Source: Thiosocius teredinicola
Lineage (GTDB): Bacteria > Pseudomonadota > Gammaproteobacteria > Chromatiales > Chromatiaceae
DNA length: 64,000 nucleotides
Direction of reading: 5' to 3'
Assembly (NCBI RefSeq): GCF_002009425.1
Contig: NZ_CP019936.1
Location: 2,839,297-2,903,296 of the forward strand
Below are positions 6,018-27,786 of the stretch, piece after piece. The notes beneath the pieces are model-generated. The model ran no database searches. It was not told where the DNA came from and was given only the letters and a program-made list of their open reading frames with translations. Within the stretch, counting starts at the first letter, position 1. Every line of letters begins with the position of its first letter. The position numbers were made by a program, and so were the translations under genes.

Positions 6018-8431
6018 GACGGACGCTCGCCCGTTGCATCGCCGCGCAACAGATCGAGCACGGTCAACGCCAGGGCCTTGGGCGAGTAGCCGCGCTCTTC
6101 GTCACTGGCCAGCACCGGGCCGACACACGCCGGACAACCGAAGCGGCAGTCGCAGGCGAGCACCATGTCGTGCGCACCGCTCACGATCCCGGCCTGACGC
6201 TGATACAACGGCTCCGACAAGCCGATGCCACCCGGGTGGTTGTCGTACAGAAACACGGCCGGCCTGAACTGGCCCTGGAAGTCCGGCGCCACTTCGTCAC
6301 CCGACACATCGCGCATCTGGCCACGGCCGTTGGCGCCCTGCGTCGCAAACCAGCGGCCGTCACCGTCACCGACCGCACGCCCGAGGTCACTCGCCTCGCT
6401 CATCGACTGCAAAGCAGCAACGTGATGCATCGCATAGGCCGCACCGAGAAAGCCGTCCAGCGCCATCTGGCGCGACGGCAGCGCAGCTTCGAGCTCGCCC
6501 GGCTTGATCTCCCACCAGACGGCGGTCGTGTGCATCTCCTGGTCCGGCAGATTGATGTTGCCGTAGCCGATGTTTTCATGGGTGTAATAGCGAATCTTCT
6601 TGTAGCCGGCGAAGCGCCGCACCAGATGCACCTCGCCGTGCGCGACGCGCGCCTTCGCCAGGGCGGCCTCGGCAAAACGTTCAAGGATCTTCAGCCGCGT
6701 GTAGACGACGGCATCGGTGTAGTAGTCGGCGCGTGTCGGCCGCACATAGGCCTTGCGACCTTCCCAGTCGAGCGACTCCACCTGGTACGGCGCGGCCTGC
6801 ACCATGTAGATCGCACCTTCGTACAAGGTATCGGGCGCCGAGTGATAGTCGACCTCGGCGATAATCTGGCGTCCGTCGTGTTCCTGGTCGATCACCAGAA
6901 AGTTACCCTCGGCCACCGAGCGCAGCGACACCGAGTTGGCCGGATAGGCGTCGGTTACCCAGTACCAGGTATCCCCCTCGTGATGCAGCACGCCCTGATC
7001 GGCGAGGTACTGCAGAAACTCGCTCAAAGACGCCTGCGTGCCGAAGTCTTCACCGGGCTTGAACGGCAGTTCGAACGCCGCACAGCGGATGTGATCGAGC
7101 AGCACCAGCAGTTGGTCCGGGTCGATGCGGGCATGCTCGGGCGAGGCGCCGAGAAAAAAGTCGGGGTTGCGCACGATGTACTGATCGAGTGGCTCGCTGC
7201 CGGCGACCATGACACCGAGCGACGTGCGATTGCGCCGCCCCGCCCGCCCCAGGCGTTGCCAGGTCGCGGCGATACTACCCGGGTAGCCGTTCAGCACACA
7301 CACATCCAGGCTGCCGATATCGACACCGAGTTCCAGCGCCGAGGTACTGATCACGCAATCGATGCTGCCGTCGCGCAATCGCTTCTCGGTCTCACGACGT
7401 TGCGTCGGCAGGTAACCGCCACGGTAGGCAAACACGCGTGGCGTGCGCCGTGGGTCTTTATCGAACACGTCCTTGAGGTACTTGGTGAGCACCTCGACCA
7501 TCAAGCGCGAGCGCGCAAACACGATGCTCTTGAGCCCACTGCGCGTGGCATAGCGCGCGATGCGGTTGGTCTGTGAACGCGCCGACGCGCGGATGCCGAG
7601 ATCGGGATTGATCACCGGCGGATTCCACAACAACAGGCGACGCTCGCCCTGCGGTGCACCGCTGCGTGTGACCGCAGACACCGGCTCGCCCAGCAGTCGT
7701 TCGGCCAGTTCGACGGGATTGGCGATGGTCGCCGAGCAGAACACGAACTGTGGTTTTGCACCATAGAACGCCAGGATGCGTTTCAGACGGCGGAACAGGT
7801 TGGCGACATGACTGCCGAACACCCCACGGTAGGTGTGCATCTCGTCGATCACGACGTACTTGAGGTTCTCGAAGAACTGCGCCCACTTGGTGTGATGCGG
7901 CAGGATCGCCTGGTGCAGCATATCCGGGTTGCTGACGACGATGTCGCCGCGCGTGCGCACCGCCTTGCGCGCATCGCCCGGCGTATCGCCGTCGAAGGTA
8001 TAAGCGCGCACACCCAGGTCGCCCGCCTGGTTCAGCGCCAACAACTCGGCGACCTGATCCTGCGCCAACGCCTTGGTCGGAAAAAGATACAGCGCCTTGC
8101 CCTGGCCGTTGGCTACCGTCTGCAGCACCGGCAGGTTGTAGCACAGCGTCTTGCCCGACGCGGTCGGTGTTACTACCACGAAATGCCGCCCCTGCTCGGC
8201 ATGCGCCCAGGCCTCGGCCTGATGCGAATACAGTTGGGTGATGCCGCGGCTTGCGAGCGCCGCACGCAGGCGCGCGTCGAGCGACTCCGGCAACGGGCAT
8301 TGCTGTGCCGCCTTGGCCGGCAAGGTCAGCTCGGCGCAGATGCGGTCCTTGTAGCGCGACTTCAGGCGCTCGGTCAGGCGGTCGACCGGATCGGCTTCAA
8401 CGGCAGGTAACGGCGATGGCAATGCCGACAT
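6014..8431 (-). CDS. mrfA: DEAD/DEAH helicase with C-terminal zinc-binding domain (MrfA/YprA family)
   Basis: An 805-residue superfamily 2 helicase: PTASGKT (Walker A), VIDEMHTYRG (motif II), FCSATIANP (motif III) and LGRAGRRNRT (motif VI). The C-terminal DUF1998-type region carries the four-cysteine motif CDCRFGCPAC, shown in B. subtilis MrfA to be needed for repair of DNA crosslinks. The start at 8431 has a GAGAGA ribosome site and gives MSALPSPL; an ORF extension of 27 residues upstream would run through the dyad and the promoter region. It is coupled to mrfB and divergent from lexA, which suggests SOS control. Confidence 0.88.
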   Translation of the reverse strand: MSALPSPLPAVEADPVDRLTERLKSRYKDRICAELTLPAKAAQQCPLPESLDARLRAALASRGITQLYSHQAEAWAHAEQGRHFVVVTPTASGKTLCYNLPVLQTVANGQGKALYLFPTKALAQDQVAELLALNQAGDLGVRAYTFDGDTPGDARKAVRTRGDIVVSNPDMLHQAILPHHTKWAQFFENLKYVVIDEMHTYRGVFGSHVANLFRRLKRILAFYGAKPQFVFCSATIANPVELAERLLGEPVSAVTRSGAPQGERRLLLWNPPVINPDLGIRASARSQTNRIARYATRSGLKSIVFARSRLMVEVLTKYLKDVFDKDPRRTPRVFAYRGGYLPTQRRETEKRLRDGSIDCVISTSALELGVDIGSLDVCVLNGYPGSIAATWQRLGRAGRRNRTSLGVMVAGSEPLDQYIVRNPDFFLGASPEHARIDPDQLLVLLDHIRCAAFELPFKPGEDFGTQASLSEFLQYLADQGVLHHEGDTWYWVTDAYPANSVSLRSVAEGNFLVIDQEHDGRQIIAEVDYHSAPDTLYEGAIYMVQAAPYQVESLDWEGRKAYVRPTRADYYTDAVVYTRLKILERFAEAALAKARVAHGEVHLVRRFAGYKKIRYYTHENIGYGNINLPDQEMHTTAVWWEIKPGELEAALPSRQMALDGFLGAAYAMHHVAALQSMSEASDLGRAVGDGDGRWFATQGANGRGQMRDVSGDEVAPDFQGQFRPAVFLYDNHPGGIGLSEPLYQRQAGIVSGAHDMVLACDCRFGCPACVGPVLASDEERGYSPKALALTVLDLLRGDATGERPS

Positions 8432-23570: not shown

Positions 23571-24197
23571 CTAACCATTCTTTCTTGATCTGTCATCTAT
23601 TGCTGCGCTAGCAATCAGCGACAATGCCCCCATGCAAAGCAAGGCCCATCCCCACTGAAGTGGAAATTCCGCCAGGGCGGGATCCTCCATGCCAGGCAAG
23701 AAAACCATTTCCGAGAGTCTTTCCAGCCTTGCTTTGGCTTGGATCGTCAGCGATCGATAATGGTCATACGCCATCAGTGAGTATCCTAGACCGCCAATTC
23801 CCGGAACCCATAGCAAGCCGAACTTTCTCGTCAATACGAACATGAATGCAGTGATCGCGAGTACGACAACGAGTACTCCTTCCGCCTTTCCGATATCGAA
23901 GTAACGCATCTCCCCCTGAAGTGGGATGCTGACAATTGGTGCGAAAACGCTAACCAGAAGTGCAATTGAGCCCGTCCACCCAAGCAGTGACTTTGTGCCG
24001 CCAAGCCCTTCTTTCCGACATTGAACTGCTTGATTCCTAGACCGGGTGATTGCTGATTGAGGTACGCCCTCTCCCTTCGATCTGTTGAGCGCAGCTTCCA
24101 CCTTCGCGTAGATGGCCCCGCAATTTGGACACTCGTAGTCGGGCACTTCGCTGGTCGGCAATCGCTCGAACCCACATTTGAGGCATTTTTTGGACAT
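23571..24197 (-). CDS. zinc-ribbon membrane protein of unknown function
   Basis: A 208-residue protein. The N terminus carries a CxxC...CxxC zinc ribbon (CLKCGFERL and YECPNCGAIYAK, residues 5-30). Three to four membrane helices follow (about 72-95, 106-122, 127-145, 180-200). A GAAGGT ribosome site sits just before the ATG. The gene is bracketed by a 20-bp inverted repeat and lies beside the attC array, so it is probably accessory. Family with zinc ribbon plus helices is widespread but uncharacterised. Confidence 0.68.
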   Translation of the reverse strand: MSKKCLKCGFERLPTSEVPDYECPNCGAIYAKVEAALNRSKGEGVPQSAITRSRNQAVQCRKEGLGGTKSLLGWTGSIALLVSVFAPIVSIPLQGEMRYFDIGKAEGVLVVVLAITAFMFVLTRKFGLLWVPGIGGLGYSLMAYDHYRSLTIQAKARLERLSEMVFLPGMEDPALAEFPLQWGWALLCMGALSLIASAAIDDRSRKNG

Positions 24198-24348: not shown

Positions 24349-24437
24349 CCCTAACGCCCGCATTTGGGGCCGCATTGATGCGCAACGGAACGGAGGTCCC
24401 CGCCCCGCAGGAGCAATCAACATGCGCTTGTTAGGTA
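24349..24437 (-). repeat. integron attC recombination site 1
   Basis: About 89 bp. On the minus strand it starts with ACCTAAC (RYYYAAC core, 24431-24437) four bases after the stop of the LprI-domain gene and ends at GTTAGGG (24350-24356). The ends pair (CCTAAC/GTTAGG, then GCAT/ATGC), and inner arms GGGGCC/GGTCCCC form an imperfect hairpin, which is the folded structure attC sites need. The last base of the GTTRRRY core is G rather than a pyrimidine. Confidence 0.8.
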
Positions 24438-24441
24438 TTTT

Positions 24442-25665
24442 TCACCTCCCACAGCCAGTACCAGAACAAGACATGGTATTAAAATCATACAATGTAGAAT
24501 GACCTAGTTTACCTTCAGGATAAGGCACACCTTCGTTTAAAAAAAATGTAGCAGAATTGCCACCATACAAGCCTGCAGGAATGGTGATTTTTTTAAGTAT
24601 TACGTAACCGTTATGAACATATCTCGGTTTAAATGTCGATGAGCTAGAACCTGAAGCTACTGGTGGCAATTCACCTTTATACATATCGGCCTTCATTTTT
24701 GCCCATCTTTCAGAATCTTGATTAGTATGTTTTCGGATCAATCCCTTCCTTGCAAAATCTTCCAAGCCAGCTTGACCTGCTAGCGGAACAGTTTTATCGA
24801 AAAACATTTCTGGCGGAGTGTCTTTCGAAGTAAGTAAATTATCGTTCTGATTGATCTCGTTGCCAAAAACCAAGCTGCCTTTACTAGCGTAATGCACCAA
24901 AGTAACATCTCTGCCAAAAACCCTCCTAGATAGAGGGTTAATCTTTCTTAAGTTTTTCTCAGTGATATAGGTATAACCACATGGACCACGATTGTCGTAG
25001 GAGCTTATAAGTATTGGAATATCTTTTGGCAAGCCTGCTACAGCCTGTCTGTGATAGCCTGTAGCAACAACCGCTGATATCTCTGTTCCCTGTGTCCAGG
25101 CCACATTCCATATAGAAGGCTCATAAGCGCCTAGAATTAAAGCAACTGGCCTGTCAGGAGAATTTACGATCACTTCAAATTGAGTTGCTTGATGCCCACT
25201 CTGGTCGATCTGAAAGTTGATTTCATTTCCACTATATGATCCACCAGCGTATATATCTGTATTACTAGAAATAACTTCTGTGTCGAAGCTACATGCTCCT
25301 TTTACTCCTTGAAACTTGCGGCTCGTCGCATACGTATATGGGATAAAGTTTTCGTGCTCCTTTCGCAACTCCAGAATTCTTTCTTTGTAAAGTGTTACAA
25401 GACAGTCAGAATTGTTATCCACACACTCTACGGCTCTTTGCTTTAGCCATACTCGTTGATCCTCAATAAGCTCTCCAGCTTTGTCACTATCGAGAGTGTT
25501 TTTAATTTTTAAATAATATGAAGACATGTCTTCATCAAGCCTGTTGAGCTCCTTATTAAAACAAATTATTTTATCTAATTCTCTTTCAGCCATACTGCAA
25601 TCAAAACTTGCCGCATGAGGTGAATTGGATAGAAAGACTATAAAAAGCAATATTACTCTGACCAT
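24442..25665 (-). CDS. gene-cassette protein with N-terminal LprI-like (DUF1311) domain
   Basis: A 407-residue secreted protein: signal peptide (residues 1-18, cleavage near HAASFDC), then an LprI-type domain (FDCSMAERELDKIICFNKEL to about residue 85, with paired cysteines and DQRVWLKQR), then a 300-residue C-terminal part with no family I know, ending in a Cys-rich SCSGTGCG. LprI is a lysozyme-inhibitor family. AT-rich codon use contrasts sharply with the core genome. AAGGA precedes the ATG, which is 24 bp from the previous attC site; attC 1 follows the stop at once. This is the layout of an integron cassette. Confidence 0.78.
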   Translation of the reverse strand: MVRVILLFIVFLSNSPHAASFDCSMAERELDKIICFNKELNRLDEDMSSYYLKIKNTLDSDKAGELIEDQRVWLKQRAVECVDNNSDCLVTLYKERILELRKEHENFIPYTYATSRKFQGVKGACSFDTEVISSNTDIYAGGSYSGNEINFQIDQSGHQATQFEVIVNSPDRPVALILGAYEPSIWNVAWTQGTEISAVVATGYHRQAVAGLPKDIPILISSYDNRGPCGYTYITEKNLRKINPLSRRVFGRDVTLVHYASKGSLVFGNEINQNDNLLTSKDTPPEMFFDKTVPLAGQAGLEDFARKGLIRKHTNQDSERWAKMKADMYKGELPPVASGSSSSTFKPRYVHNGYVILKKITIPAGLYGGNSATFFLNEGVPYPEGKLGHSTLYDFNTMSCSGTGCGR

Positions 25666-25688
25666 TTAATGTAAGTTCCTTTTTGATT

Positions 25689-25820
25689 GCTTAACGCCGT
25701 GTTAAGGGGCGGCCAGTGCGTAGCGCCGTTTGCGCAAAAATGGCGAAGCCATGCGCAATAAGGCGCGGAGTACTGGACGTCCCAGCGAGCATAGCGAGCG
25801 ACTTGAACGCCTTGTTAGAT
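25689..25820 (-). repeat. integron attC recombination site 2
   Basis: About 132 bp, of VCR-like length. On the minus strand it starts ATCTAAC (25814-25820), which includes the TAA stop of the DUF3800 gene, and ends GTTAAGC (25689-25695). Both fit RYYYAAC and GTTRRRY. The interior folds: GGCCAGT / ACTGG, GCGCC / GGCGC, TGCGCA / TGCGCA and a terminal ATGGC-GAA-GCCAT hairpin. Confidence 0.85.
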
Positions 25821-26990
25821 TTCTCTTTTTTCACTTTTTTCTAGCATCTCGATGAACGTCACTAGATGTGGATAATCCGGGCCTTTCAAAATATCGACTT
25901 CGCCCTTACTGACGATATTCAGGCTTTTTCTTGCTTTCCCTAGGCGGTTCAGCAGAGGGGTAACTATGGAATTAACACGCTCAACGAACTCTTCCATATC
26001 GGAAAAATCGCAGGGAATTTTGTAGCCCTTGTTCGAACTGGTAACAATGACATCAAGATCTCGCAGCGGAGCAATTATTTTTGACCGAATGGTGTAACTC
26101 GTTACTTCCGAAAAGCCTAGACCCTGTAAATACTTGATTATGGCTGCGGTTGCGATGTAAGCCTGCTTTTCGACCATGCGACTATGAAATACCAAGTGCC
26201 TCAATGTCGCCACTTGCAAGCGCGTTTCTTCTGCGTGGTGTTTTTCGTTCTTCTCAATAAACGCCTCGGCCTTCCCGAGCGAATATCGATAGATCAGTTC
26301 ACTGAACTCCTTGGTGGTTCGATCTTTCGGAGAGTACGCTTGATATTTGGTAGGCCATTCCTCAATCGACAACGCCTTACTCTCAATGAGCTTTATGTAC
26401 GCTTCTCTCAGTTCACCAGAAATCTTCTGTTCGTAGATTTTCCCAAGTGTACCGGCAAGAAAATCTGCTAGTTGGACGAGTATTTCGCCCTTGCTGTTCA
26501 CAAGATCGAATTCGGACCGGTAAAACATATCTGGTTTGTGATTCTCTTCTATGTACCCCTTAAAACTAGCCTTAAACTCAGCACCGCCGTGTTCATCAGC
26601 GATTACGTGCACATCGAGAAATGATGAAAATAAGACACTATAGAGCTTACCGCTTGTATATTTGAGAAACGACTTCTTGAATTGAAGACCGCTATCTCTT
26701 AGAACACGCTCCTTGTTTATGCAAAGAGCATAAAATTTGAAATCAAGGCTGATAAGAGAATTGAGAATTTTCGCTCTTCGCTGGGCATTACTGCCGACAC
26801 TGCTCGACTTCATTTCACCAGACTGAAAATACCTCTTTCTGACTTTTTCAGCTTCTTCCGCAAGAACGCTTTTATCTTGTTCCGATACAAGAATCGCACA
26901 CACGATGAAATACTTACTGGCACCAGCTTTTTGGGTTTCAAGATCCGCGTTTCCAGACTCATCGATATAGGCGAAATTTTTTCTCTCCAT
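25815..26990 (-). CDS. gene-cassette DUF3800 protein with C-terminal helical domain
   Basis: A 391-residue protein. FAYIDESGN (Asp10, Glu11) and the later LVQLADFLAGTLGKIYE are the two DUF3800 signatures, a family with an RNase H-like fold and putative metal-binding acidic residues. The C-terminal 150 residues (from about 240) are helical with a winged-helix-like stretch (IIKYLQGLGFSEVTSYTIRSKI). No studied function; such genes are frequent in cassettes and mobile islands. AAGG lies nine bases before the ATG, which is 18 bp from a cassette-boundary core site. GC is low. Confidence 0.82.
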   Translation of the reverse strand: MERKNFAYIDESGNADLETQKAGASKYFIVCAILVSEQDKSVLAEEAEKVRKRYFQSGEMKSSSVGSNAQRRAKILNSLISLDFKFYALCINKERVLRDSGLQFKKSFLKYTSGKLYSVLFSSFLDVHVIADEHGGAEFKASFKGYIEENHKPDMFYRSEFDLVNSKGEILVQLADFLAGTLGKIYEQKISGELREAYIKLIESKALSIEEWPTKYQAYSPKDRTTKEFSELIYRYSLGKAEAFIEKNEKHHAEETRLQVATLRHLVFHSRMVEKQAYIATAAIIKYLQGLGFSEVTSYTIRSKIIAPLRDLDVIVTSSNKGYKIPCDFSDMEEFVERVNSIVTPLLNRLGKARKSLNIVSKGEVDILKGPDYPHLVTFIEMLEKSEKREI

Positions 26991-27008
26991 GCTCAGTTGC
27001 CTTTGTAA

Positions 27009-27015
27009 ATCTAAC
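27009..27015 (-). repeat. cassette-boundary core site (possible attI remnant)
   Basis: On the minus strand GTTAGAT, a GTTRRRY core, 18 bp before the DUF3800 start. It marks the 5' edge of that cassette. I see no matching RYYYAAC half or integrase gene on the other side up to ihfB, so this may be an attI remnant or the edge of a decayed attC. Confidence 0.55.
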
Positions 27016-27339
27016 AGGAGAATAGACAGACTCTGCGCGAAACAACATGCATAGACTCTGTGTTTGCCGAGATAGGCAGAGTCTGCCTATTGCATGCAGC
27101 GGCATGTGAGCGCCCTGTCGTAAGCATCGGGCGGCATTGATGTTCCGTCATTGTTGTTGCTCGTTCCTTCGGGCGGTTTGCAGAAGATATCTGCCTAATA
27201 ATTGTCGGCGAACGCGGAATATTCAAGTTGCCGCCGCGTAGCGTTTGCGCTAACAGCCCTGTCTCCGCGTTACTCAGCAAACTGAGTTCGATTCATTGCA
27301 GCGACTGGAACGCCACCCCCGCATTTCTTACAGACAAAG
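27016..27339. other. gap beyond the cassette array with clustered palindromes
   Basis: No gene. AGACTCTG occurs at 27028-27035 and 27053-27060 and inverted at 27077-27084; the last lies inside the perfect palindrome ATAGGCAGA-G-TCTGCCTAT (27072-27090). These could be operator or integrase-binding repeats upstream of the minus-strand cassettes. The rest (27100-27330) shows nothing I can name. Confidence 0.5.
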
Positions 27340-27363
27340 AAAAACCGGCCGAAGCCGGTTTTT
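27340..27363 (-). terminator. rho-independent terminator of ihfB
   Basis: On the minus strand AAAAACCGGC-TTCG-GCCGGTTTTT: a stable UUCG tetraloop hairpin followed by a T-rich tail, 28 bp after the ihfB stop. It ends the long gyrA-to-ihfB block. Confidence 0.92.
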
Positions 27364-27391
27364 CAAACCTTTCAAGGACGCCTGCAGACTG

Positions 27392-27712
27392 TCAGCCGAC
27401 GTTCTCCTGGCGATCGTCCTGATCTGACTGGAACTTGAGATTGACGCGTTCGCGCAGCTCTTTGCCCGGCTTGAAATGCGGGACGTATTTACCGCTGAGT
27501 TCTACCGAATCACCGGTTTTGGGATTGCGACCCATGCGTGGCGGGCGGAAGTGCAATGAAAAGCTGCCGAAGCCGCGAATCTCGATTCGCTCTCCGGATG
27601 CCAATGCTTGGCTCATCTGCTCGATCATGCATTTAACCGCCAGCTCGACGTCACGATACGCCAGATGACTTTGCTCCCGAGCTATGACTTCGATCAACTC
27701 TGATTTGGTCAT
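27392..27712 (-). CDS. ihfB: integration host factor subunit beta
   Basis: DNA-bending nucleoid protein, heterodimer partner of IhfA. The 106 residues show [11 protein letters not shown], the HU/IHF core [23 protein letters not shown] with the intercalating Pro of the beta arm, and [12 protein letters not shown]. The frame extends 17 codons upstream into the intergenic region, but MTKSEL is the family start. It follows rpsA as in most gammaproteobacteria. Confidence 0.96.
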
Positions 27713-27742
27713 TAAAACCCAGCCCAATCTCCAGGTGAATCG

Positions 27743-27758
27743 GGCGGCCGAAGCCGCC
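27743..27758 (-). terminator. UUCG hairpin between rpsA and ihfB
   Basis: GGCGGC-TTCG-GCCGCC on the minus strand, in the 74-bp gap after rpsA. No T-run follows, so it probably attenuates or protects the rpsA message rather than ending it. Confidence 0.55.
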
Positions 27759-27786
27759 GTCATTAAGTTAGCGACAGTCCGATCGC

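Follow-up and report, generated by a model that had tools for sequence, protein, structure and literature searches.

The stretch of DNA analysed here (64,000 nucleotides of the Thiosocius teredinicola chromosome; hereafter the window) harbours an array of two gene cassettes on the minus strand, lying past the ihfB gene (27392-27763). A terminator-like hairpin after ihfB (27339-27364, minus strand), one such site being found against 0.5 expected in shuffled sequences, marks the upstream edge of the platform, and is followed by a leader that lacks intI (27015-27236, minus strand) and ends in an attI site (27015-27085, minus strand). Cassette 1 extends from crossover to crossover over 25695-27014 (minus strand), with boundaries drawn from the sequence and from the attI and attC assignments; it comprises a gene for a 391-residue protein with a DUF3800 domain at residues 6-183 (25815-26990, minus strand; Pfam PF12686, 50.6 bits) and a 132-bp attC (25689-25820, minus strand) of the type found in the resident integron of the same genome. 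Cassette 2 (24355-25694, minus strand, crossover to crossover, boundaries from the sequence) carries a gene for a 407-residue protein with an N-terminal LprI-like domain (24442-25665, minus strand; Pfam PF07007, 36.4 bits), followed by an 88-bp attC (24349-24436, minus strand) of the type found in a catB cassette. The two minus-strand AT-rich genes, each with an attC-like site, that a sequence-only reading had described are thus present, and the GC content of the insert is 39-46% against 52-60% in the surrounding DNA. The same reading had located the TAA of the DUF3800 gene inside its attC, where it indeed lies, in the R'' box.

The DUF3800 gene was absent from all 55 relatives compared, whilst the product of the cassette 2 gene has a homologue of 48% identity in one genome of the same class (G235). 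As a separate observation, the DUF3800 protein is remotely similar to PDC-M04A, a candidate for phage defence (PADLOC, E 1e-8). The description of the surroundings as a core region is apt on the ihfB side, but not on the other, as the gene at 23571-24197 beyond the array is likewise missing in the 55 relatives. No Rfam match was obtained within the window. A translated search for resident-array homologues among the dispersed cassettes returned none for the window cassettes among the matches listed; those matches, all from the L052 array, fall on attC sites or adjoining stretches.

Three approaches were utilized to assess the attC sites: a covariance model built from 12 attC of the resident integron, with the window excluded; a general attC model for which the arms of 22 attC from other integrons were used; and a rule-based scan for R boxes together with L boxes bearing one bulged base. 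The resident-type model retrieved the site at 25820-25689 (minus strand) with 114.5 bits (E 1.1e-29), the next match in the window scoring 16.8 bits, and a 127-bp alignment of the site with the attC of a particular resident cassette shows 90.6% identity; its outer R' letters belong to the next cassette and are unpaired. This model did not match the site at 24349-24436, an attC of another type. With the general model it was the best of three matches in the window (24436-24349), at 17.0 bits and an E of 0.012 that is weak alone, and in the rule-based scan it was the top site of the window with a score of 13.0, where 20 Markov-shuffled windows yielded a single match of 12.3. The attC that plasmid LC735982 carries in a class 1 catB cassette also aligns with it, over 92 bp and at 72%, and the two differ by compensatory changes in the L arm (CGCATGTTG/CAAATGCG in the window, CGGCTGTTG/CAAAGCCG in the catB site). 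The fold of this site on its own is unremarkable (z -1.0 and -1.7 relative to shuffles), and it is the scan, the catB alignment with its matched arm changes and the position of the site a few bases past a low-GC gene that together make a convincing attC of it. In both window sites R'' pairs with R' and L'' with L', with an unpaired base in L''. Judged by sequence, both attC sites are real, and both are predicted to recombine as the folded bottom strand. A resident attC had no counterpart in the plasmid collection searched.

Covariance models of the kind that the sequence-only reading had proposed as its check, here built from the attC sets named above, matched both sites (E 1.1e-29 and 0.012), and its call of a CALIN holds, since at least two attC are present and no intI is nearby; with the general model by itself, the match of the second site is weak. 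Both sites lie where that reading had placed them, except that the 24349 site ends at 24436 and not 24437; the final R' base of the 24349 site is G and not Y.

The head of the array was identified by Blast against the intI loci of relatives. Window positions 27000-27061 are 79% identical over 62 bp to positions 8047-8108 of locus L047 in the relative G005, a stretch that separates the intI start from the first cassette, and hence an attI; the comparison of the two attI scored 60, where shuffled controls reached 26 at most, and the homology reaches at least 46 bp upstream of the crossover. The window attI consists of three CAGANTCTGTCTAT-like repeats (27085-27061, 27060-27036 and 27035-27015) with a period of 25 bp (p 0.002), ending CTG/TTAG, so that the crossover falls between 27015 (G) and 27014 (T). 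An identical pattern of three 25-bp repeats is displayed by the intI-linked attI of G029, a member of another genus of the same family. With homology to an intI-linked site and direct repeats beside a G/TT crossover, 27015-27085 is an attI, at which binding and cutting by IntI are predicted. It follows from the homology and the repeats that the boundary of the array is 27015/27014, which corrects the 5' boundary drawn earlier, and that the stretch upstream of it is not ordinary host DNA. The reading of the array as lone cassettes is accordingly right in that no integrase adjoins it, but incomplete in having missed the array's own attI.

No intI adjoins this attI, as one would in a complete integron. 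As the sequence-only reading had it, the window holds no integron-integrase match, nor does the region upstream of the array; no intI remnant was recognised between the array and ihfB, nor any trace of the trio of genes normally found downstream of ihfB in the genus. A sigma-70 promoter scan of the leader was negative. A short ORF in the leader (27011-27280, minus strand) closes at a TAG supplied by the cassette at the crossover (TGT TAG), and in the platform at locus L053 a leader ORF at approximately 7490-7627 is closed in like manner (TGT TAG). A similar short ORF is contained in attI1.

The integrase that had been guessed to lie elsewhere in the genome was found in the search of the single 4.79-Mb contig, which gave one strong integron-integrase match (TIGR02249, 425 bits, 901,425-902,351). 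It is located 1.96 Mb from the window and is the sole intact integron integrase gene found in the genome. Its frame is uninterrupted over 463 aa and contains the motifs around the presumed catalytic residues of a tyrosine recombinase. The resident array that it heads comprises approximately 220 attC from 903,272 to 1,030,117 (127 kb), all in one orientation (plus-strand count); arrays of such size are usually cited from Vibrio. The family model begins at residue 155 of the resident IntI (L006:6423-7814, minus strand), so that about 150 aa extend the protein at its N-terminus, as in several relatives. The resident attI has diverged from that of the window, their direct pairwise score lying within the shuffled range.

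Dispersed attC and attI were sought in the genome with patterns and with models, the attC model scan covering its best 150 candidates. Two more clusters devoid of intI were revealed, one of a single cassette at 2,972,214 (plus strand) and one of four cassettes at 3,030,816-3,033,024 (minus strand), so that three platforms are spread over approximately 170 kb, 2 Mb from the complete resident integron. The 2.97 Mb leader is 67% identical to the window leader over 219 bp; in blocks of 24 bp the identity is 46-79% along the 216 bp upstream of the crossover, whereas downstream of it the identity is about 50% and reaches background within approximately 50 bp. The 3.03 Mb leader is homologous to that of the window in part, with a similarity that is weaker yet above all shuffles, and it too is preceded by a terminator-like hairpin. 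Exact and near copies of the window attI repeats in the genome are clustered at the platforms. A sequence-only model was further built from the platform leaders, the G005 attI and the resident attI; in the genome it matched four attI sites (that of the resident intI and those of the three clusters), scores that are partly by construction given that the window leader was used in building it, and gave one weak opposite-strand match at the window site. No intI was detected near the leaders of the window, the L052 and L053 loci or the sites of the relative G008.

At E values up to 0.1, this leader model matched 13 of 34 genomes of the same family and none of 21 from other families of the class, though the weakest matches in the relatives may be due to chance. 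Several relatives contained more than one site: G008 has four, G030 six and G012 three. Many of the sites were close to the end of a contig, which would be expected were assembly interrupted by repeated attC; the relatives are mostly draft genomes, in which binning errors are possible. For 20 loci from relatives, all 19 distinct attC matches (E < 0.05) shared the strand of the attI-like site and lay downstream of it, and in the rule-based scan of 23 loci 21 attC occupied that position, against 5, 5 and 1 in the other three. Leaders within one genome were alike over approximately 100 to 370 bp, with unrelated DNA farther upstream. The intI gene itself was encountered in a series of states: intact at L214, broken at L205 and L206, an N-terminal piece at L213 and a short trace at L211. 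G030 encodes several attI-like sites and only a broken intI, whilst the attI at the only strong (intact) intI found in G008 differs in type from the dispersed sites of that genome.

Some further observations were made outside the window genome. The leaders of L196, L197, L203 and L204 (all G008), L198 (G004) and L200 (G003) share a promoter-like block, TTTTTGACGC...TAAT, approximately 65-80 bp upstream of the crossover. An attI-like repeat ending CTGTTAG also occurs on a phage contig (IMGVR_UViG_3300033151_000449; L217:748-772, minus strand) that bears terminase-like and portal-like genes, where it adjoins an apparent cytosine methyltransferase gene. In G006, of the same genus as the window genome, contig C429 (L036) has an intI at a distance of approximately 2 kb from ihfB; it comes after the trio of genes normally found downstream of ihfB in the genus, a trio that the window genome lacks at this position. 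This arrangement had suggested an ancestral integron locus at ihfB, on which we do not rely, the attI there being of another type and the intervening genes different.

The comparisons above establish, at the level of sequence, the two attC sites, the attI homology, the cassette boundaries and the sister platforms, each with no detectable intI. We consider it probable that the window array is an integron wanting only intI, with a leader, an attI and two captured cassettes past the ihfB terminator, that it is one of at least three such platforms in this chromosome, and that its intI was lost. Integron heads, that is, a leader with attI and in relatives sometimes a piece of intI, would have reached new loci by being copied or acquired; their intI would have been lost afterwards, presumably because one integrase per cell suffices. 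Loss after copying appears to be the simplest origin, and the decay series in the relatives supports it. Circular cassettes would have been inserted by attC x attI recombination at G/TT, those of the window most likely by the resident IntI or an earlier one, and the platform cassettes may still be exchangeable in trans. The negative sigma-70 scan of the window leader weighs against this account.

A broader proposition, which we put forward tentatively and regard as possible but doubtful, is that of a distributed integron recurring in the family, whereby one integrase gene serves a giant main array and also, in trans, several maintained satellite platforms at unlinked loci. That the platforms are live is suggested by the 90.6% identity of the cassette 1 attC to a resident attC and by the persistence of the repeats in old copies. 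Use in trans is argued against by the divergence of the resident attI and by the different type of the intI-linked attI in G008. If the distributed arrangement holds, captured genes could be placed in several expression contexts, and if the satellites are live an integron can have more than one entry point, which would change models of cassette capture and expression. Judging from the platforms, an integron could be equipped with several loading docks and not just one.

An unlikely account is that the array is a dead relic, an old integron at ihfB that lost intI and is decaying, its attI and cassettes no longer used. The lack of intI in the leader and the window would accord with this, as would G030 with its several attI-like sites and only a broken intI, and the leaders, at only 67% alike, must be old; yet the repeats and G/TTAG ends persist in those old copies, the cassette 1 attC closely resembles one in the resident array, and an intact-looking IntI is encoded in the genome. 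Insertion of the cassettes by the resident IntI into an ordinary genomic site (attG) was our initial reading, for which a resident integrase and resident-type attC do exist, but it is now very improbable, being contradicted by the match of the upstream flank to the G005 attI: that flank, far from being ordinary host DNA, is homologous to attI over at least 46 bp and to the sister leader over 216 bp. It is hardly credible, too, that recombination moved the head of the resident integron (attI and first cassettes) to ihfB. The resident type of the cassette 1 attC would fit, but the window attI is closer to that of G005 than to the resident attI, the leader upstream of it is not the resident intI, and no resident intI sequence occurs at the junction. 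Finally, that these are two genes with chance palindromes and no integron DNA at all can be dismissed, since even if 24349-24436, taken by its fold alone, does not clearly surpass shuffles, the E value of 1e-29 refutes this at 25689-25820, both sites match known attC, the genes are low in GC and strain-specific, and an attI stands at the head.

An integron that lacks only intI falls within what is known as a CALIN, a cluster of attC without an integrase, and these are common, one RefSeq survey having counted 2961 CALINs against 2760 complete integrons (PMC9024848). The window array agrees with this class in that its two attC and their cassettes share one orientation and intI is missing from the vicinity. 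CALINs are, however, defined irrespective of attI, whereas here the array possesses an attI of its own, and its sisters begin with homologous leaders; IntegronFinder 2.0 does not detect attI outside class 1 (PMC9024848). Three origins have been proposed for CALINs, namely off-target insertion, loss of intI and rearrangement (PMC8618304), and an attI at the head of an array helps to separate them by sequence alone. The insertion of cassettes at attG in E. coli (Loot et al. 2024, as cited in PMC12901181) likewise yields cassettes away from the resident integron, but as those insertions are presented in the citing paper the target here differs, being an attI with three spaced repeats and not ordinary host sequence. 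The CALINs found at recurring secondary loci in Xanthomonas (PMC12444791) are similarly without integrase, away from the resident integron and of resident-type attC; no attI is reported at those loci, whereas the window array has one. Several attI-headed platforms without integrase in one chromosome were not met with in any published description found, most subscription journals lying outside the search, and the single published precedent found for an attI-headed CALIN was that beside a complete integron in the Shewanella prophage M16-3 (PMC9892861). That case concerns one prophage CALIN with a nearly identical attI, whereas the platforms here are chromosomal and three in number, their leaders are old and diverged, and related genomes contain further ones.
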